Source: Ignavibacteriales bacterium (lineage in GTDB: Bacteria > Bacteroidota > Ignavibacteria > Ignavibacteriales > Melioribacteraceae). From it: a stretch of DNA of 64,000 bases. The position numbers and the translations under genes are program-made. The notes under the pieces are model-generated. The model did not search any database. It worked only from the letters and a program-made list of their open reading frames with translations, and had not been told where the DNA came from. Location of the stretch: contig JAPLFG010000002.1 in NCBI GenBank assembly GCA_026390795.1, positions 186,001-250,000 of the forward strand, in the 5' to 3' direction. Each line of letters starts with the position of its first letter. Position 1 is the first letter of the stretch. This document shows, one piece after another, positions 39,615 to 60,648 of this stretch.

Positions 39615-39689
39615 GGGGGCTTAGCTCAGTTGGTTCAGAGCATCTGCCTTACAAGCAGAGGGTCGGTGGTTCGAACCCATCAGCCCCCA
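39615..39689 (+). tRNA. tRNA-Val (anticodon TAC), integration target of the element
   Basis: A 75-base cloverleaf: acceptor GGGGGCT/AGCCCCC, anticodon loop CTTACAA giving TAC, T-loop GGTTCGAACCC. The 3' half from the anticodon stem onward is part of a 48-base direct repeat reappearing at 52194, showing that an element inserted here and rebuilt the tRNA. Confidence 0.95.
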
Positions 39690-39694
39690 CAATA
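39647..39694 (+). other. attL: 48-bp attachment repeat at the tRNA-Val 3' end
   Basis: Runs from CCTTACAAGC in the anticodon arm to CCCCCACAATA just past the tRNA and is identical to 52194-52241. This is the typical attachment core of tyrosine recombinases that use tRNA genes. Confidence 0.92.
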
Positions 39695-46037: not shown

Positions 46038-47090
46038 TCATTTATCACCCACGGCAATACTTAACGTCTGAGATGCTTTATTGAATGTTTGAGATACCTT
46101 TCTCAGATCATCCATGTTTGTGTGCAAATAATTCTGAGTGGTCTGAATACTTGAATGCCCGGCAAAGTCTTTTACTGCTGACAGGGGAGCTCCATTATTC
46201 AAAGCATGACTTATGGAAGAATGACGCAAACTGTGAAAGCATACATTCTCTGATATACCGGCACTCCGGAGAGCACGCTTAAAATTTTTACTAACAAAAT
46301 TAGCCGAGTATTGTTTTCCTTCTTTCTTTGTGAAAACAAAATCATCCACTGGATTAATGTATTTGGGGAATCTTCTCTTTAGTATTTCGATTGCTTCGCT
46401 GCTTAAAGGGATAGTTCTAATTTTTCTTGATTTTGTCCGGAAGCTCTCACTCCCAACCGTGATAATTCCATCGTTAATTGAAACATCACTCCATCTTAGA
46501 TTTAGAAGTTCACTTAATCGCAATGCAGTTTGGAAGGCGAACAGATAAATATCTTTGAGTACTTGCAATCGAATGAATGTTAGAACGGTTTGAAGTTCGC
46601 TGAGGGTTAGATACTCACGGCGTTGCTGCTGCTCTTTGGGTAGCTTCACTAGTTTACATGGATTTTCCTTAATTAAGTTCCAGCTTATCGCCTTTGAAAA
46701 AAGAGTTCTTATATTTCTGAAATCAACTTTATAACCGGCCGGTGCTTTACGTCTACAAAACTGAATGAATTCTTCAATTTCCTTGGATGTTATTTCGTGG
46801 ATCTTTTTCTCGGGACCAAAAAGAAACTCAGCTTTGTTGAGGGTTGCTTTTACGGATGATTGATATTTGGATGAGTAGCCGAAATCATTTAGATATTTTT
46901 TAAAATCAGAGCAAAGGGTGCAAAGCAATTTATCGTTATCGTAATTGATTGTATACTGTTCCTTAATAGCTTGCTCAACAATTCGTTGAATAAGCCGTAG
47001 CAGATCACCTTCAGCTTTCTTGTTGCTTAGCATTATTTGGGAAGAATCATTCATGCTAATTTTTTTGTGATTGTTTGTAAGTATATTCAT
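46038..47090 (-). CDS. Tyrosine recombinase 2 (internal)
   Basis: Up to 350 residues (a second ATG at 47054 gives 338). The SAM-like core-binding domain is followed by a catalytic domain with Arg in RLSELLNLRWSDV, HSLRHSSISHAL, GHSSIQTTQNYLH with the nucleophile Tyr, so all catalytic positions look intact. It lies mid-element, far from both attachment repeats, and overlaps the preceding frame by 35 bases. It may act in resolution or inversion, or be a leftover from another element. Confidence 0.9.
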   Translation of the reverse strand: MNILTNNHKKISMNDSSQIMLSNKKAEGDLLRLIQRIVEQAIKEQYTINYDNDKLLCTLCSDFKKYLNDFGYSSKYQSSVKATLNKAEFLFGPEKKIHEITSKEIEEFIQFCRRKAPAGYKVDFRNIRTLFSKAISWNLIKENPCKLVKLPKEQQQRREYLTLSELQTVLTFIRLQVLKDIYLFAFQTALRLSELLNLRWSDVSINDGIITVGSESFRTKSRKIRTIPLSSEAIEILKRRFPKYINPVDDFVFTKKEGKQYSANFVSKNFKRALRSAGISENVCFHSLRHSSISHALNNGAPLSAVKDFAGHSSIQTTQNYLHTNMDDLRKVSQTFNKASQTLSIAVGDK

Positions 47091-51090: not shown

Positions 51091-52110
51091 TTAATTTAAT
51101 AAATTTACAGCATCCGCTAGATTCTGATGCTGCAGGTGACTGTATATTTGTGTTGTTTTAAAATCCTCGTGACCCAGCAATTCCTTAATCACATACAAGC
51201 TAACGCCTTTCTGAATTAAGTTACTTGCGAAAGAATGCCTCAAGGTATGAAGGTGGATCTGATCATTCATCTCTGCAGCGCGTACGGCTTTTTTGAAATG
51301 CTTGCTCAAGTAATCGATCGTAAGTTTGAAGCCGGGTATTCTTTCGAATACAAAATGAGGTTTATTCAAATTGATCATCTTTGGAAAATGTTTCTGTAGA
51401 ACCCCCAGCAACTTATCGTTTATCGGAATGATTCTGTCTTTCTTTCCCTTAGTTGAAAACTCGAGTGTATTTCGAATCGTGATTATTCTATTCTCAAGAT
51501 CTACATCATTCCATCTCAGATTTGTTAATTCACCAGCTCTCATGCCAGTATGAAATAAAGTTACATATACATCTTTCAACAAATTTGTTCTTACCTTCTC
51601 TAGGATCTTTACAAACTCAACATCAGAAATGAAAGCCGGGTAAACCTTTGGTAGTTTGGGAAAACGAAATTTCCGGAAAGGATTATCAACGAGGTAATCC
51701 CATTCAATCGCTTTGTTAAATGCAGCCCTTAGATTTCTATAACACAAAAATGCAGAGTGCTTTGATCTGCTGAATATGAAGAGAAGGAAAGCTTCTAATA
51801 CACGTAAACTAATTTCATCTAGCTGCTTATCACCAGCATACTTTAAGAATTGAGCAAGTGATGAACGAACATTTCTCAGATAACTTTTAGAAAAAGAAGT
51901 CTGAACAAACTGTTCGTATTCAGTTTTGAATTTAGAAAATAGTATTGGAGCCCTTAGAATATCTTCTGCAGGATCTGCTTTGAAGTTATTCAAGAATTTC
52001 AAAGCATCTTTTTTTTTTGTACACTTTGTTGATTTAGAAGATAACTTTCCATCTCTCAGGTAGATTAATTGATAGTAGGGTGATCTCTCTGGTTGTTTAA
52101 CAAGGTACAT
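51091..52110 (-). CDS. int: Tyrosine recombinase 1 (probable integrase of the element)
   Basis: The protein has 339 residues. An N-terminal arm-binding-like segment (YLVKQPERSPYYQLIYLRDGKLSSKSTKCTKKKDA), a core-binding domain, and a catalytic domain with RAGELTNLRWNDVDL, HTLRHSFASNLIQKG and LGHEDFKTTQIYSH (nucleophile Tyr) are all intact. It lies 83 bases from the right attachment repeat, transcribed away from it, the usual position of an integrase. Confidence 0.93.
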   Translation of the reverse strand: MYLVKQPERSPYYQLIYLRDGKLSSKSTKCTKKKDALKFLNNFKADPAEDILRAPILFSKFKTEYEQFVQTSFSKSYLRNVRSSLAQFLKYAGDKQLDEISLRVLEAFLLFIFSRSKHSAFLCYRNLRAAFNKAIEWDYLVDNPFRKFRFPKLPKVYPAFISDVEFVKILEKVRTNLLKDVYVTLFHTGMRAGELTNLRWNDVDLENRIITIRNTLEFSTKGKKDRIIPINDKLLGVLQKHFPKMINLNKPHFVFERIPGFKLTIDYLSKHFKKAVRAAEMNDQIHLHTLRHSFASNLIQKGVSLYVIKELLGHEDFKTTQIYSHLQHQNLADAVNLLN

Positions 52111-52122
52111 GTTAGACTCCAG

Positions 52123-52135
52123 AATCCTATGTACT
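52123..52135 (+). repeat. Candidate integrase arm site, right end
   Basis: AATCCTATGTACT, identical to 39790-39802, between the integrase start and the right core (58 bases away). Confidence 0.5.
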
Positions 52136-52193
52136 TTCCATAGTAGTTATTCGAAAATGCTCGTAAAAGATATTTTTGAAAAGTATCCATCCC

Positions 52194-52241
52194 CCTTACA
52201 AGCAGAGGGTCGGTGGTTCGAACCCATCAGCCCCCACAATA
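52194..52241 (+). other. attR: second copy of the 48-bp tRNA-Val attachment repeat
   Basis: Exact copy of 39647-39694. Sequence to the left differs from the tRNA-Val 5' half, so this is a partial tRNA copy, not a gene. Confidence 0.92.
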
Positions 52242-52242
52242 C

Positions 52243-52279
52243 AAACCCTTGTAACTACATAAGTTGCAAGGGTTTTTTA
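52243..52279 (+). terminator. Original tRNA-Val terminator, displaced by the element
   Basis: AAACCCTTGTAAC (52243-52255) pairs with GTTGCAAGGGTTT (52263-52275) with one mismatch, running into TTTTTT. It follows the right attachment repeat by one base. The 52280-52470 stretch holds nothing else clear. Confidence 0.85.
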
Positions 52280-52470
52280 TTTTATAAATAATAATTATGT
52301 GATACATTCCGTCCTTCCCTGTTTCCAGAGGGAAAAATAACATGTTGCTGAAAAATCATTAATTGACCTCATGTAAAAATTAATTATTCGTAGAAAAAAT
52401 GATAAGATTTAGTAAATTAAGGCAGCAAATTAAGAGCAATCGATATTAGTGTCTGAATATAAAGGAAAGT

Positions 52471-53793
52471 ATGGAAGCTAATACTCAGAATGAAATATTA
52501 GATTCATTGGCTGAAGGAATTTTCACCGTTGACAAAAATTTCAAAATTAATTTCTTCAATCGAGCTGCCGAAAGGATATTAGGAATTGAGAAAGAAAATG
52601 TAATAGGTAAAACATGTAAGACTGTTTTTAATACGTTACTCTGTTCCACTGACTGCCCTATAGCCAAAACTTTACAATCCGGAAAAAGCGTATTTAATCT
52701 TGAGACAAAATTTTCATGTGTTAATGGAAAAACAATTCCTCTTAAGATGAACGCTGCAGTCCTAAAAAATAATTTAGATGAGCCGGTAGGCGGTGTGGTT
52801 TCATTTCTTGACGCATCTTTACTGATTGATATAGAAAAATTTCTTGCTACTACAAATTTTTATGGAATTGTTGGTCATAGTAAAAGCATGATAGATATAT
52901 TTAATCTGATTAATGAGATTGCGGATACTGATGTAAGTGTATTGATTCAAGGAGAAACCGGAACGGGCAAAGAAATGATTGCAAATGCAATTCAAAGTAC
53001 CAGCCGCCGCAAGAATGAGAAATTCATAAAGGTTAATTGTGCTGTTATTCCTCACAACATGCTGGCAAGTGAATTATTCGGGCATGTAAAAGGTGCTTTC
53101 ACAGATGCTGTAAAAGATCGAATTGGGAGATTTGAATTGGCCGATAAGGGGACAATTTTTTTAGATGAAATAGCTGAAATGCCTCTTCAGATGCAGACAC
53201 AATTGCTTAGAGTCATTCAAGAAGGAACATTTGAAAGATTGGGAGAATCCGTTACAAAGAAAGTTGATGTAAGAATTATTGCCGCAACAAATTCCAACAT
53301 AAAAAATGCAATCAGTAGTGGGAAATTTAGAGAAGATCTTTTTTTTAGACTAAATGTAATACCTGTAGAAATTCCCCCATTGAGAGAAAGAAAAGATGAT
53401 ATTTTGTTTTTAGTAAAGCACTTCATTAAAAAGTACAATATTATTTATAATAAAAAAATTCACGAAATAGAAGAAGAGGCATTAGACTCAATAATGAATT
53501 ATGAATATCCGGGGAATGTGCGCGAACTTGAGAGTATTATTGAGTACGGAGTAATTAGGGCAAAAAAAGAAAATGCTATCTGTCGTTGTTGTTTGCCTCC
53601 GACAGTTAGACAAAGTAATGATACTAACTGTGGTGGTAAAACAAAGAGATCACTCAGTAAAATTGACAACGATGACTTAATCCAACTTTTAAAAGATAAT
53701 AGATGGAATAAAACTGCAGTTGCAAAAATTCTTGGTGTAGATCGATCAACTCTCTGGCGTTACCTTAAGAATGATGGCCCGAACAATAACTAA
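52471..53793 (+). CDS. Sigma-54-dependent transcriptional activator, PAS-AAA+-Fis
   Basis: The protein has 440 residues. The PAS domain (about 5-115) carries a Cys triad C49-x8-C58-x3-C62 (ending CSTDCP), a feature of PAS sensors in some activators, possibly redox-sensing. The AAA+ domain has Walker A GETGTGKE at 161-168, the sigma-54 contact loop GAFTDA at 208-213 (consensus GAFTGA), Walker B GTIFLDEIAE at 227-236 and FFRLNVIPVEIPPLRERKDDI. CRCCLPP links to a Fis-type HTH (LIQLLKDNRWNKTAVAKILGVDRSTLWRYLK). Palindromes and a -24/-12 promoter directly downstream point to the cytochrome genes as its target. Confidence 0.95.
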   Translation: MEANTQNEILDSLAEGIFTVDKNFKINFFNRAAERILGIEKENVIGKTCKTVFNTLLCSTDCPIAKTLQSGKSVFNLETKFSCVNGKTIPLKMNAAVLKNNLDEPVGGVVSFLDASLLIDIEKFLATTNFYGIVGHSKSMIDIFNLINEIADTDVSVLIQGETGTGKEMIANAIQSTSRRKNEKFIKVNCAVIPHNMLASELFGHVKGAFTDAVKDRIGRFELADKGTIFLDEIAEMPLQMQTQLLRVIQEGTFERLGESVTKKVDVRIIAATNSNIKNAISSGKFREDLFFRLNVIPVEIPPLRERKDDILFLVKHFIKKYNIIYNKKIHEIEEEALDSIMNYEYPGNVRELESIIEYGVIRAKKENAICRCCLPPTVRQSNDTNCGGKTKRSLSKIDNDDLIQLLKDNRWNKTAVAKILGVDRSTLWRYLKNDGPNNN

Positions 53794-53795
53794 AG

Positions 53796-53810
53796 TGTTG
53801 CATTGCAACA
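53796..53810. promoter_or_regulatory. Upstream activator palindrome 1
   Basis: TGTTGCATTGCAACA is a perfect palindrome about a central T, two bases after the activator's stop. It shares the TGTTGCA...TGCAACA halves with the second site. Confidence 0.75.
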
Positions 53811-53858
53811 ATATGTTTTAAGTCTTCAAATCATTTGATTATAATACCTTACGAGAAA

Positions 53859-53879
53859 GTGTTGCATCCAGTGCAACAC
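53859..53879. promoter_or_regulatory. Upstream activator palindrome 2
   Basis: GTGTTGCA-N5-TGCAACAC, perfect 8-bp half-sites, centred 66 bases from site 1 and about 92 bases upstream of the -12 element, normal distances for sigma-54 enhancers. Confidence 0.75.
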
Positions 53880-53946
53880 ATAATTCTATGAACACTATAA
53901 ACCTTTCGTTTATCAACTCAATAATTGGTTATTACCAAGTGATTCG

Positions 53947-53962
53947 TGGCAAGTAATTTGCC
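53947..53962 (+). promoter_or_regulatory. Sigma-54 promoter of the TPR-cytochrome operon
   Basis: TGGCAAGTAATTTGCC matches TGGCA(C)-N5-TTGC with exact spacing; GG of the -24 and GC of the -12 are present. The predicted transcript start is about 53973, one base before the ATG of the next gene. Confidence 0.8.
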
Positions 53963-53973
53963 TTTCTAAAAGT

Positions 53974-54438
53974 ATGAGCGAAATGCTAGGTAATTATCAT
54001 TTTCTTAACGGCAATTATTCTTTTGCACTTCAAGAATTGGAAAATTCTTACAAGAAATTCCCAAATAACCTATGCGCAAAAAAGAGATTGATTATTTGTT
54101 ATACGCAAACCAAGAATATTGACAAAGCTCTTGATCTTTTTACTTCTTTGATCAAAGAAAATATTGACTGCATTATTGATACTAAACCGGAAGAAGAAGA
54201 CTGCCCATGTGCTGATCTTGTAGTTAAAATTGAAAGCGGGAAAGCTGAAAGATATAATCAATATGAATTATTTATTGAATTAGGTATACTCTGGCTCTAC
54301 TGCGATATTAACCAATCTCTAAGCTATTTTACAAAAGCCTATCAAGTAAATCAAAATGAAATGCGTTTAGAACAAATCATTCAAATACTAACTTCAAAAA
54401 TAAACGAACAACATCAAGGAGAGAGAAATGGCAAATGA
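53974..54438 (+). CDS. TPR-like protein co-transcribed with the cytochrome
   Basis: The protein has 154 residues. Repeating helical pairs (GNYHFLNGNYSFALQELENSYKKFPNNLCAKKRLIICY, TKNIDKALDLFTSLIKEN, ELFIELGILWLYCDINQSLSYFTKAY) look like three TPR units. A Cys cluster lies at EEDCPCADLV. There is no signal peptide. No ribosome site precedes ATG 53974, and the predicted sigma-54 transcript would start one base before it, so translation may be leaderless or begin at ATG 53983. It overlaps the cytochrome gene by 11 bases. It may help assembly of the cytochrome. Confidence 0.75.
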   Translation: MSEMLGNYHFLNGNYSFALQELENSYKKFPNNLCAKKRLIICYTQTKNIDKALDLFTSLIKENIDCIIDTKPEEEDCPCADLVVKIESGKAERYNQYELFIELGILWLYCDINQSLSYFTKAYQVNQNEMRLEQIIQILTSKINEQHQGERNGK

Positions 54439-55617: not shown

Positions 55618-58600
55618 TTAATTTTCTGTGAAGATTGGCAAGGTAAAAGAAAATTTACTTCCTTTTCCAAATTCACTTTCAACCCAAATTTTTCCGCCGT
55701 TTCTTTCAATAAAATCTTTGCAGAGAATTAATCCCAACCCGGTACCGGATTCGCTCTTCGTCCCTTGTGTTGAAAATGGCTTATCAATTTTGAAAAGTTT
55801 TTCAATGTTTCCCGGTTCAATGCCAATACCATTATCAACTATACTGATTTCTACAAATTGATTATCAACCGCATTAGCTGAAATATCAATTTTACCGTTT
55901 TCATTTGTAAATTTAATGGCATTGGTCAATAAATTTCTAAGCACAGTTTCGAGCATATTCCTATCAGCTATGATAAATATCTCATCGCTTACATTGTGGC
56001 AAAGTGTAATATTCTTTAGAGACGAACTGTTCTTAGTTAACCCGATTGTAGCAAGTATAATCTCGGAGAGCTGAATTTTCTCTGGCATAAATTCTATTTG
56101 ACCCATCTGATTTCTGGACCAGAGCAATAAATTCTCAAGGAGAAGATAAGCTCTATTTGATGTATTCAGAATCCCCTGTAAGAATGTTATTCTTTCTTCT
56201 TCAGGCATATTTTCACGCTCACTCATCATGATCTTTAGAGCACTATTTATTGAATGAAACGGATTTTTAAGGTCATGTGAAATAATCGAGAAGAATTTAT
56301 CTTTAGTTGCGCTGATGGCTTTAAGTTCTTCCATATATCTTTGGAGCTGTGCCTCGGATTCTTTTCGTTCAGTTATATCCTGAACTGCACCGATAGCTCC
56401 GTTTACAACTCCTATTTCATCAAAAGTAGGTGCCCCGGTAAGGCTTAAATAACGCATTGAGTTGTCACGAACTTTGACCCGGAACTCAACTCCTTTTTCC
56501 TTCTCTCCGTTGAATTGTTTTTCAATCGATTCTTTGAAACGATTTCTATCATCTTGGTGGATCAGTTCTAATATTGAATTCAAAGATGGTTCAAATACCC
56601 CTGGAGTAACATCGAAAACATTGTACGTCTCATCTGACCAGGAGACCTTATCATTTTCTATAACGGCATTCCAGCTCCCAATATGTGCTATTCTCTGTGC
56701 CTCGGAAAGAATGTTCTGCTTCTCTTGTAAAGTCTTTTCAATTTGCTTTCGTTGAAGAGAAATTCCAATCTGTCCCGAAATAAATTCTAAAATTTCAATG
56801 CTTTTGGAGTCGAATGCATTCGGGTCATAATAATCTTGCAGTACAATTGCACCTATTACTTTCCCGTCTACCTTTAATGGAACTCCGATCCATATTTCCG
56901 ATGGAGTCCCAATCATCTCTATGAGCCCAGCCTTGACCATTGCTAATACGTCGTCTCTGGTCGCAATAATTGATCTCTTATTTTTCGTAACAAGACCGGT
57001 TACAGATTTTTCTGCGGGCCACGTAGCTATCTCATCCTTCTCATCTTTAGCATAAGGTGTCCAAAGCATATCAGTCGCTTCATCATAGAAAGCAATATAA
57101 AAATTAGTTGTATCCATCAGAGTTCCTAATTGATCTCTGGTGATACTTATTAACTCTTCAACATTTTTTGTAGTTGTAACTGCTGCCGTAACGTTGTAAA
57201 TAACTTTTTGTATTGCTTCATCGCGTTTCCGCTCCGATATATCCCGGTGAATTCCTAGAAAACCAATGATCTCGCCCTTATCATTCATTATCGGATTATT
57301 CGAACCCTCAACCGTTATTACCCGCCCGTCCTTTCTTTTGTTCTTTATTTCTCCTATTACCGCTTGGTTTGATAATAACCTCGACCAGAATTCTTCATAA
57401 ACGCTTGGTGGTATAAGTCCAGATTTTAAAATGCTTGGTGTTTTTCCAATTATTTCGTTGGGACTAAAACCATAAACTTTCTCGAATGAACTGTTGGCGT
57501 ACTCAATTTCTCCTTTTTCATTGGTGATAAATATTGCATCTTCAGAACGCTCAATGCTCATCTTGAATTTTCTTAATCCTTCTTCCATCATTTTTCGTTC
57601 CGATATATCAATTACGGTCGAAAGTAAACATGCTTCACCTTTTATATTAATAATTGCACTTGAAATGATTGTTGTTATGATTTTCCCGGATTTTATTCTG
57701 AACCGACATTCTCGCCCCGATATGTTTCCGTCTCTCATTAATTCTTCTGTTATGCTGTCTCGTTCTTGAGGATTTTCAAACAGTCCTAATTTTTTGGAAC
57801 TATTGCCGATTACTTCATCGCGCGAGTAACCCGAGATTTTTAAAAATGTATCATTAACATCGATATAAATTCCATCTTTCATAGTTGTGAGGGAAATCAA
57901 AGACGAACTGTTATGAAAAGCTGCGGCAAAAATTTGTTCAGATTCTTTTAATTGTTCCTCTGCCAGTTTACGTTTTGTAATATCTTCATGTTGAATAACT
58001 ACGTAGAGAAGATTCCCTTCACCATCTACTATCGGCGCTGCGGTATTGGAATACCATTTCTTTTTTCTTTCTTTCACTTCTATATTTTGAGAATCTGCAG
58101 CTATACCAATATCAAAATAGATTTCCCATTGTTCAATTCTGTGCTCATCAAAAACTCTGCGCAAAATTTTATCAATCCCGTTCCTTTTTATCTCGGCATC
58201 TTCAAAGATGTTATAAATGTGACCTTCGATATGTTCCGGTTCAACCCCGAATAGTTCTGTAAGTTTAGGATTAATGCGTAGGCACCAGCCGTCTTTATCT
58301 AATATCTGAGTACTTGTGGCGGATTGCAGATACATTTGTTCAAAAAATCTTTTTTGATTCTCAAGTTCCATTTCAATTTTTGTGCGTTCGGTTATATCAA
58401 TCGTATAACCAGCCAAATATTTTGGTTCTCCATCAATAAAGATTGGAAACTTAATTGAAGAATATGTTCGACCGTCTAATTCTTCAATAAACTCTCGATA
58501 ATTTCCTTCGCTTAAAATTCGTTTATCATCCTCTATCATTTTTTTAGAGAGTTCGGAGGGGAACAACTCATCCATAGTTTTTCCTAATATCTCATCCAAA

Positions 58601-60648
58601 GGACGGTTCAGCATTTTTTCATAATTGTCGCTTAAATAATTCGGTTTGATGTCGCTATCTTTTATAAATACATAGAGAGGATTATATTTAATGAACAATC
58701 TGAATATTTCATTTATCTCGAATAATTGCTCTTCAGTTTTTTTGCGGTTTGATATATCCGTGTGTGTGCCGATCATTCTTAGCGGTTTGCCGCTTTCGTT
58801 ATAGCTTAAGATTTTACCTTGGTCGAGGATCCATTTATAAGATCCGTCCTTACATTTTACTCTATGTTCAGAGATATAGACTTGGCTAATACCGCTGACA
58901 TGTTTTTCTACTTCCTTCATTACATAAGGTAGATCATCCGGATGAACTAAATTAGTCCAAGCATTTAAATTATTCTCAATTTCTTTCTCTTCATATCCAA
59001 GCATCTGTTTCCAAAGAGGGGAGTAATAAACTTCGTCTGAAACCAAATTCCAATCCCACAGTCCTTGGTTATTTCCTTCAATAGCTGATTTCCATCGCTG
59101 TTCACTTTCAAGTAATAATTGTTCAACCTTTTTGCGCTCGGTTATATCTCTAACAGAGGCCAGATGTACTTTGCGGTTCACAAAATCAAAAGAACTGCGG
59201 GCAATTTCGGCGGGAAAAGCGGTACCATCTTTTCTCTTATTTATTCGAATTTCTAAATGTCTTTTTGAATCATTACTGGCGTTAAACATTTTAGTATTTC
59301 TAGGCTCAGCGGAAAGATCGATATCCGAAAGCATAAGCAATTCATCATGGCTATATCCGTAAAGAGCAGATGCTGCTTTATTTGCTTCAAGTATTTTTCC
59401 GGTTTCGGTTTCAATTAAAAAGAGTGCATCCAAATCTGATTCAAAGAGCTGTCTATACTTCTCTTCATTTTCTTGAATAACCAATTCATGTTTTTTAATG
59501 TTGGTGATATTTCTGCTTATCCCTATAATTCCGTTCACTTTTCCTTCGTGACCTAAAACCGGAATCTTATTTGTAATGTAGAATTCATTCTCTAATGTTT
59601 CTTGGTTTACTCTTACTTCTTCTTTGTTATAAATTGCTTTTCCGGTTTTAAGAAGCTCAAGTTCTTCATTCCAAAATTCTTGTGCTAATTCTTCTGGGAA
59701 GAAATCAAATGGATTTTTCCCAATTACTTCTGATTGTGTGAGAGCGCCCATAGAGCGGAGGTGCGCTGCATTATTAAGCAAGTATAAGCTTCCAGAATCT
59801 TTGAAAAATATCTGGTCGGGAATGTTATCTATCAATAATCTTAAAAGGTTGCGTTCGTATTTAACGGCATCTTCCGCAATTTTATGAAGGGTAATATCTT
59901 TTATAACTCCGAAAACAACATTTTCTTTTTTATCATATTCAGCAGTTGAATGGATGTCAACAATTTCACCGCTGTCTGCTTTCTTGATTTTAAATTTAAC
60001 ATTGTATTGCACATCGTGATCGATCAAATTTTGGAGAGCGGTATTAAGCTCTTCCCGGTATTCTGGCAGAACCAATTTTTGAATATCAGATATTTTCAAT
60101 TTCAGATTACCAAAGCCATAGACTCTTAACGCACCTTCGGAAGCGATGACTGTTCCGCTTTTTAAGTGCAGTTCCCAATTACCAGCTTGCGAAATAAATT
60201 CGGCACGTTTCAATCTGGTCTGGCTTTTCAAAAGATCTTCTTCTTTTGCTTTTAGCGCTTTATTCGCGTTGAAAAGTTTAAATGCCATATTAATGGAAGC
60301 TAACAGTACAACGTCTTTTGAATCTTTTACAACGTATCCATACGATGTTATCTTCTCGGTTTTTTCAACAACTTCTTTTTCTGTATGGGAAGAAAGAAAT
60401 AGTAGAGGAATATCATTCATGCGTAAAATTTCACGGGCGGCTTCGGTTCCATCGATTCCACTGCCAAGGTTGATATCCATTAGGATAAGATCAATCTCGT
60501 CTTTTTGTGCATTAATAAATTCGATCGCTTTTTCACCGGTAGAGGTGTGGATGATTTTGTAACCCGCTTTACTTAGCCACCGAGTCTCAGTCATAGCAAG
60601 TAGTTCGTCGTCCTCAACTAATAAAAGTGTTTTCAGATTTTTGACCAA
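55618..60648 (-). CDS. Giant multi-PAS sensor histidine kinase with N-terminal receiver
   Basis: The protein has 1676 residues and no evident membrane segment. Residues 1-125 are a receiver (acceptor D58 in LILMDINLG). About eight PAS/PAC modules follow, each ending in an ISERK/ITERK-like motif, with a GAF domain about 1180-1330 (VTGLVTKNKRSIIATRDDV, WIGVPLKVDGKVIGAIVLQDY). The HisKA domain has H1458 in FSIISHDLKNPFHSIN; the HATPase has LLTNAIKFTNENG, VDNGIGI and GTGLGLILCKDFIERNGG. The receiver-first layout suggests input from another kinase. No cognate regulator is adjacent on its strand. Confidence 0.92.
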   Translation of the reverse strand: MVKNLKTLLLVEDDELLAMTETRWLSKAGYKIIHTSTGEKAIEFINAQKDEIDLILMDINLGSGIDGTEAAREILRMNDIPLLFLSSHTEKEVVEKTEKITSYGYVVKDSKDVVLLASINMAFKLFNANKALKAKEEDLLKSQTRLKRAEFISQAGNWELHLKSGTVIASEGALRVYGFGNLKLKISDIQKLVLPEYREELNTALQNLIDHDVQYNVKFKIKKADSGEIVDIHSTAEYDKKENVVFGVIKDITLHKIAEDAVKYERNLLRLLIDNIPDQIFFKDSGSLYLLNNAAHLRSMGALTQSEVIGKNPFDFFPEELAQEFWNEELELLKTGKAIYNKEEVRVNQETLENEFYITNKIPVLGHEGKVNGIIGISRNITNIKKHELVIQENEEKYRQLFESDLDALFLIETETGKILEANKAASALYGYSHDELLMLSDIDLSAEPRNTKMFNASNDSKRHLEIRINKRKDGTAFPAEIARSSFDFVNRKVHLASVRDITERKKVEQLLLESEQRWKSAIEGNNQGLWDWNLVSDEVYYSPLWKQMLGYEEKEIENNLNAWTNLVHPDDLPYVMKEVEKHVSGISQVYISEHRVKCKDGSYKWILDQGKILSYNESGKPLRMIGTHTDISNRKKTEEQLFEINEIFRLFIKYNPLYVFIKDSDIKPNYLSDNYEKMLNRPLDEILGKTMDELFPSELSKKMIEDDKRILSEGNYREFIEELDGRTYSSIKFPIFIDGEPKYLAGYTIDITERTKIEMELENQKRFFEQMYLQSATSTQILDKDGWCLRINPKLTELFGVEPEHIEGHIYNIFEDAEIKRNGIDKILRRVFDEHRIEQWEIYFDIGIAADSQNIEVKERKKKWYSNTAAPIVDGEGNLLYVVIQHEDITKRKLAEEQLKESEQIFAAAFHNSSSLISLTTMKDGIYIDVNDTFLKISGYSRDEVIGNSSKKLGLFENPQERDSITEELMRDGNISGRECRFRIKSGKIITTIISSAIINIKGEACLLSTVIDISERKMMEEGLRKFKMSIERSEDAIFITNEKGEIEYANSSFEKVYGFSPNEIIGKTPSILKSGLIPPSVYEEFWSRLLSNQAVIGEIKNKRKDGRVITVEGSNNPIMNDKGEIIGFLGIHRDISERKRDEAIQKVIYNVTAAVTTTKNVEELISITRDQLGTLMDTTNFYIAFYDEATDMLWTPYAKDEKDEIATWPAEKSVTGLVTKNKRSIIATRDDVLAMVKAGLIEMIGTPSEIWIGVPLKVDGKVIGAIVLQDYYDPNAFDSKSIEILEFISGQIGISLQRKQIEKTLQEKQNILSEAQRIAHIGSWNAVIENDKVSWSDETYNVFDVTPGVFEPSLNSILELIHQDDRNRFKESIEKQFNGEKEKGVEFRVKVRDNSMRYLSLTGAPTFDEIGVVNGAIGAVQDITERKESEAQLQRYMEELKAISATKDKFFSIISHDLKNPFHSINSALKIMMSERENMPEEERITFLQGILNTSNRAYLLLENLLLWSRNQMGQIEFMPEKIQLSEIILATIGLTKNSSSLKNITLCHNVSDEIFIIADRNMLETVLRNLLTNAIKFTNENGKIDISANAVDNQFVEISIVDNGIGIEPGNIEKLFKIDKPFSTQGTKSESGTGLGLILCKDFIERNGGKIWVESEFGKGSKFSFTLPIFTEN

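Follow-up and report, generated by a model that had tools for sequence, protein, structure and literature searches.

A predicted sigma-54 enhancer-promoter unit between a conserved activator gene and a surface cytochrome operon in Ignavibacteria

Genes and features of the locus

The window, the whole 64,000-nt stretch of Ignavibacteriales DNA that was analyzed, contains a sigma-54 activator gene followed by a 180-nt intergenic region and a two-gene operon, which encodes a TPR protein and a split-Soret-type cytochrome (Table 1). The intergenic region holds two palindromes and a -24/-12 element.

Table 1. Annotated and predicted features of the activator-cytochrome locus (window coordinates)
Feature	Position	Strand	Basis or remark
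PAS / AAA+ / Fis-type HTH sigma-54 activator (enhancer-binding protein, EBP), 440 aa	52471-53793	+	PF00158 (2.7e-70), PF13426, PF02954
Upstream activator site 1 (predicted), TGTTGCA-T-TGCAACA = TGTTGCATTGCAACA	53796-53810	.	7-nt arms, 1-nt centre; half-sites conserved
Possible degenerate third half-site, TGTTTTA	53814-53820	.	weak
Upstream activator site 2 (predicted), GTGTTGCA-N5-TGCAACAC = GTGTTGCATCCAGTGCAACAC	53859-53879	.	8-nt arms; half-sites conserved
Sigma-54 -24/-12 promoter (predicted), TGGCAAGTAATTTGCC	53947-53962	+	matches 9/9 scored positions; place before ATG kept in 32/33 loci
Predicted transcription start, +/- a few bases	53973	+	12 nt past the C of the -12 GC; spacing rule
TPR protein, 154 aa	53974-54438	+	PF14559; alignment; conserved N-terminus MSEML(G/A)N, C-P-C motif; no Shine-Dalgarno-like motif before gene
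Shine-Dalgarno-like AAGGAG before cytochrome gene	54416-54421	+	motif there in 31/32 relatives
Split-Soret-type dihaem cytochrome (C_GCAxxG_C_C family) with T9SS C-terminal sorting tail, 373 aa	54428-55549	+	PF09719, TIGR04183 above cut-off

The gene directly upstream of the intergenic region had been read as a sigma-54 activator, and the domain matches bear this out. Besides PAS and Fis-type HTH domains, its product carries an AAA+ sigma-54 interaction domain (PF00158, 235.9 bits), in which GETGTGKE (Walker) and DE are conserved in the alignment. Residues 208-213 (L1 loop) read GAFTDA, a one-letter variant of the usual sigma-54 contact loop, GAFTGA, and each letter was found in at least 95% of 80 orthologues. 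Cys49 and Cys62 are present in all 80 of these orthologues and Cys58 in 78; with three near-invariant cysteines in the PAS domain, redox or metal sensing is a reasonable guess but no more than that. The NCBIfam equivalogs for named activators all fell below their cut-offs (PrdR 349/795, NifA 328/529, NorR 318/476, NtrC 301/559, and PrpR 272/499). With regard to autoregulation, inspection of 52111-52470 by eye revealed no paired half-sites or -24/-12 element.

The description of the operon as one for a surface cytochrome is also supported. The translation contains two CxxCH motifs (CQSCH and CVQCH) and is homologous to PDB 1h21 over residues 45-265 (E 1.2e-30), with the NCBIfam split-Soret equivalog (NF047622) below cut-off at 150.3 of 400 bits. 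The T9SS sorting tail (TIGR04183) scored 32.8 bits against a cut-off of 23, and the genome encodes a T9SS sortase (NF033707, 954 bits against a cut-off of 420). The cytochrome would presumably act in electron transfer. Soret, Por secretion, sorting, multiheme, and TPR are all absent from the main text of the Melioribacter roseus multi-omics paper (PMC5492636). The structure model of the TPR protein is confident (pLDDT 92) and forms a TPR array; its comparison with the PDB gave no match at E<=0.001, the best ones being TPR arrays, so that the structure suggests no function. Judging by gene order, the likeliest job of this protein is to help make or export the cytochrome.

Other features of the window flank this locus. 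A 48-nt direct repeat (39647-39694 and 52194-52241) corresponds to the 3' portion of a tRNA gene (39615-39689), and its second copy adjoins a tyrosine recombinase gene (51091-52110, minus strand); a second recombinase gene lies at 46038-47090. The tRNA repeat and the recombinases very likely mark an integrated element of ~12.5 kb, the far end of which abuts the activator cassette. On the other side, and convergent to the operon, the minus strand encodes a 1,676-aa hybrid histidine kinase (55618-60648) that combines a receiver domain with numerous PAS domains and a GAF domain.

Palindromes and promoter exceed chance expectation

The palindromes and the promoter of the intergenic region exceed what chance would produce. 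Both palindromes of the original prediction are present with perfect arms, while the 5-nt centre of site 2 is not palindromic; the 66 bases said to lie between them correspond to the centre-to-centre distance, the intervening gap being 48 nt. TGTTGCA-N1-5-TGCAACA occurs at only two places in the 4.08-Mb genome, which are the two palindromes described here (control pattern, 0), and the looser GTTGCA-N1-10-TGCAAC occurs at six (control, 0). The 180-nt region contains four GTTGCA/TGCAAC hexamers, and at least four were found in 1 of 5,000 shuffles. At the position of the weak third half-site several relatives carry TGTTGCA, 13 nt centre to centre. The four looser palindromes elsewhere in the genome (C1:158710, C1:384527, C3:1015987, and C5:259134) might be extra activator targets; the circuit had been called self-contained, which is likely, with these four sites as a qualification.

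The -24/-12 element has its GG and GC 12 nt apart, the correct spacing claimed for it, and begins 67 nt past palindrome 2 and 136 nt past palindrome 1. Its score, a match at all nine scored positions, was reached by 0 of 100 dinucleotide shuffles. The letters of the element alone were nevertheless rejected as evidence because the bare pattern TGGCA-N6-TTGC had 21 matches genome-wide against 17 for the control, that is, no enrichment; the promoter is credible because of its place and its conservation. The sole plus-strand sigma-70-like match within 53500-54200 is located inside the activator gene (53672-53700). The genome search for rpoN proposed earlier found it in a single copy (PF00309, 50.7 bits against a cut-off of 23.8).

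The activator, TPR, and cytochrome genes form a conserved cassette

Among the 146 genomes searched, the window's own included, 43 carried the split-Soret-type cytochrome gene and 68 an activator orthologue. Two of the 42 matching genomes of relatives, G021 and G062, gave fragments or weak matches; in the other 40, the flanks of the cytochrome gene were read. A TPR gene stood in front of the cytochrome gene at 32 of these 40 loci and the activator at 31, two of the latter being contig-cut ends only. Activator, TPR protein, and T9SS-tailed cytochrome are hence a conserved cassette among Melioribacter relatives, the nearest named one found being a Melioribacter MAG (VEPI01000157.1, L166), whose TPR region is included in the loci compared here. 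Among the matches listed, activator orthologues away from a split-Soret gene mostly preceded other cytochrome operons, which consisted of either a TPR gene and a T9SS cytochrome with at least seven CxxCH motifs, or genes for two lipoproteins, the first of them decahaem, and for a TPR protein.

As the original prediction anticipated, the orthologous loci keep both the half-sites and the -24/-12 element. Across 33 intergenic regions (those of the relatives, with the window included) we counted 113 half-site hexamers, whereas shuffling gave 8.5 (maximum of 17 among 200 shuffles; L084 reduced to its last promoter region). These half-sites are clustered, and their centres lie preferentially 6, 9, 10, or 13 nt apart. 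The best -24/-12 match lies 11 to 15 nt ahead of the equivalent TPR ATG in 32 of the 33 regions, the exception being L070, where the intergenic region is longer. All 33 regions share the GG and the -12 G, but only 12 of them have the C that follows it. Seven regions scored 9/9, nineteen scored 8, and seven scored 7, a score which 13 to 57 of 100 shuffles also reached, so that for these seven it is the position that counts.

Cytochrome homologues that lack the activator and TPR genes in front mostly lack the sites as well: seven of eight have no TTGCA or TGCAA within 400 nt upstream, and in the eighth (L071) the lone TTGCA-type half-site falls within that locus's own -12 element. L071, in genome G013, has TGTTTCA/TGAAACA palindromes and a -24/-12-like element upstream of the cytochrome gene, and no close activator orthologue was found in that genome. 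The interval between activator and split-Soret gene holds a doubled control region at two other loci. At L084, a promoter, a TPR copy, and a multihaem T9SS cytochrome gene are followed by a second promoter, a TPR gene, and the split-Soret gene; at L078, a second promoter is accompanied by a broken first TPR copy.

A predicted leaderless start for the TPR gene

Transcription from sigma-54 promoters usually starts 12 nt downstream of the C in the -12 GC. Applied here, this spacing rule leaves ~1 nt before the TPR ATG, and a start at or a few bases from that ATG would leave the first gene of the mRNA with practically no leader. The same rule predicts leaders of 0 to 4 nt in 32 of the 33 cassette loci and in 16 of 17 paralogous TPR-first operons with a start found (exception, L126; nine records without a TPR start by regex were not counted). 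For the decahaem-first operons, predicted leaders are 16 to 42 nt in 20 of 22; at L127 the leader computes to an impossible -5, probably from a mis-set start codon, and at L125 no promoter was found. In records from outside the Ignavibacteria (KSB1 and Calditrichota), leaders are 3 to 4 nt at L176 and L172 and 12 to 18 nt at L187, L202, and L229, with no promoter found at L199 and L222; L171, from a MAG labelled Actinomycetota, has a predicted leader of 3 to 4 nt.

A Shine-Dalgarno-like motif precedes the TPR gene in only 2 of 33 regions and the downstream cytochrome gene in 31 of 32 relatives' operons, and these bacteria therefore use such sites in the same mRNA. The motif is also rare before the decahaem start (4/22), so its absence alone is no proof of leaderless translation. 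Codon 2 of the TPR gene is mainly Ser or Asn and codon 3 Glu, and changes in them are mostly synonymous (AGC/AGT and GAA/GAG), a pattern that favors translation from Met1; the codon-2 Ser is TCN at L158, L163, L164, and the KSB1 loci.

The circuit could also operate as described with an mRNA that is not leaderless, either because transcription starts a few bases later and translation begins at Met4 (53983), or because the genes are read from a longer, read-through mRNA. Met1 and Met4 are equally invariant, and sigma-54 starts vary by several bases, lying 8 to 13 nt after the motif in Campylobacter jejuni according to excerpts of PMC3847290. The synonymous variation of codons 2 and 3, as if they were translated, speaks against this alternative, and so does the rarity of a Shine-Dalgarno-like motif before Met1 (2/33 regions). 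We regard this alternative as unlikely, albeit one that deserves to be kept in mind. Leaderless sigma-54 transcripts did not turn up in searches of openly licensed papers, which does not prove that none has been described; the excerpts of PMC3616915, PMC3847290, and PMC5243855 cover leaderless mRNAs and sigma-54 promoters without joining the two.

Recognition-helix residue 424 and half-site sequence change together

That the neighboring activator binds the palindromes was the inferred step of the original prediction, and covariation between protein and DNA now supports it, within the limit that the change in question took place once. In 82 activator records (with 220-nt stretches for 50 records of L117-L165, and 653 and 2,385 nt for L078 and L084), Asp or Asn at recognition-helix residue 424 went with GTTGCA half-sites 38:1, with neither hexamer at one locus (L095, D). 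Gly went with GTTTCA 35:1, with neither hexamer at five loci, and Ser with GTTTCA 1/1. The exceptions are L079 (N, 2:3) and L156 (G, 2:1). Among the HTH columns listed, 424 is the only one that separates the D/N group from the G group without overlap. The rule also held at 9/9 further loci with an activator upstream, in a check of 21 of 75 loci that lie beyond the earlier set, and for Escherichia coli PrpR, which has Ser at this helix position and GTTTCA-type hexamers 5:1 before prpB.

A tree computed without the HTH from 80 of the 82 records (the truncated L011 and L077 were omitted) placed all 41 G rows and the S row behind one branch with support of 97/99. The D/N-to-G change is thus a single historical switch seen many times. 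Since it is one event on the tree, the covariation counts are not independent, and a Fisher p of 4e-19 taken at face value was rejected. Individual genomes add to the picture. G007 has two activator paralogues, one of each kind, and each is followed by its own kind of site. In G035, the cytochrome gene has lost its neighbor and has GTTTCA-type sites, and the only close activator orthologue found there is G-type, which fits. G013 is a counter-case: its cytochrome gene has GTTTCA-type sites with no close activator orthologue, the best match being 42% identical with a different helix. Taken together, the covariation suggests that the neighboring activator very probably binds the paired palindromes.

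A different regulator, for instance another sigma-54 activator of the same genome, would have candidates enough, with 23 PF00158 matches genome-wide in all (many partial), and some EBP genes elsewhere sit away from their targets (excerpts of PMC2725144). Such a regulator is, in our view, quite improbable, in that the sites vanish where the neighboring activator is missing, covary with that neighbor's recognition helix, and in G007 follow the paralogue of the matching kind. Least credible, with very little probability left to it, is that the palindromes, lying behind the activator gene, act as transcription terminators or RNA hairpins and that the -24/-12 match arose by chance. A simple scan does score both as terminator-like and palindrome 1 begins 3 nt past the activator stop codon, but the plus strand has no T run after them. 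The reading was rejected because, in the clade with helix residue H or Y at 429, 9 of 14 loci carry the half-sites as direct repeats (10 nt apart), from which no hairpin can form, and because the half-site letters change together with the activator helix.

The decahaem-first operons show a further arrangement. At L122-L156, G-type activator paralogues precede genes for a decahaem lipoprotein, a second lipoprotein of ~330 aa, and a TPR protein; terminator-like hairpins often lie before the internal TPR gene, and no sigma-54 promoter lies directly ahead of it.

Proposed mechanism and wider reading

We consider it highly probable that the intergenic region works as a sigma-54 enhancer-promoter unit run by the upstream activator, with a start near 53973, a leaderless TPR gene, and a cytochrome gene served by a Shine-Dalgarno site. 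In activators of this family, as is established, a bound protein switched by its sensor remodels a waiting sigma-54 polymerase. Here, sigma-54 RNA polymerase would wait at the -24/-12 element while the activator occupies the two TTGCA-type palindromes; a PAS trigger, perhaps redox or metal, would lead the activator to form an active ring, and its ATP hydrolysis would remodel the polymerase and open the promoter. The transcript would begin on the TPR ATG or a few bases from it, and the T9SS-exported cytochrome, as the second gene, would be translated from its ordinary Shine-Dalgarno site.

On a broader scale, the balance tips slightly toward a scheme in which, across the Ignavibacteria, one activator family runs surface and lipoprotein cytochrome operons via sigma-54, with leaderless mRNAs for TPR-first operons and leaders of 16 to 42 nt for those that begin with the decahaem lipoprotein. 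Residue 424 (D/N versus G/S) would set the half-site base (GTTGCA versus GTTTCA), letting paralogues diverge within one genome. With this cassette, an activator, its sites, and a promoter for surface electron transfer can be tested as one unit, as can the prediction that a single residue of a Fis-type helix switches specificity. Leaderless translation from a tightly controlled promoter would also become accessible to study, the cytochrome gene with its Shine-Dalgarno site serving as an internal control on that mRNA. Among the entries listed, searches of openly licensed papers yielded none on sigma-54 control of cytochromes in Ignavibacteria, nor did we find the regulon, the residue-base correspondence, or the leaderless first gene described there; term searches of PMC12316311 and PMC6615313 gave no mention of Ignavibacteria or of the half-sites reported here.

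Comparison with known systems

The kind of circuit is well known. NtrC-type EBP circuits share the AAA+/Fis-type HTH activator beside its target, the paired upstream sites, and the -24/-12 promoter; unlike NtrC, the activator described here has a PAS rather than a receiver domain, and its L1 loop departs by one letter from the usual GAFTGA. The NtrC enhancer is TGCACC-(A/T)4-TGGTGCA (excerpts of PMC4987338), a layout shared by many relatives of this activator family as TGCAAC-N5-GTTGCA or TGAAAC-N5-GTTTCA, whereas the window's own sites have the reverse layout, GTTGCA-N1 or N5-TGCAAC. PrpR of E. coli and Salmonella is likewise a sigma-54 activator, with CGTTTCATGAAACG as its enhancer (excerpts of PMC4987338). 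Its recognition helix, GISRTTFWRR, and the GTTTCA-type half-sites before prpB resemble those of the S/G-type activators, but sensor and targets differ, and the NCBIfam PrpR model reached 272 against a cut-off of 499.

Sigma-54 activators also stand beside cytochrome or electron-transfer operons in Desulfovibrio (DVU3142 and ohcBAC, an octahaem cytochrome complex) and in the Geobacter RpoN regulon (PMC4641369 and PMC2725144). In the excerpts of these sources, the cytochromes differ from the one reported here and have no T9SS tail, and a TPR first gene and a leaderless start are not mentioned. The cytochrome itself is homologous to the split-Soret cytochrome c of Desulfovibrio desulfuricans, from which it differs in falling below the NCBIfam cut-off and in carrying a T9SS tail.
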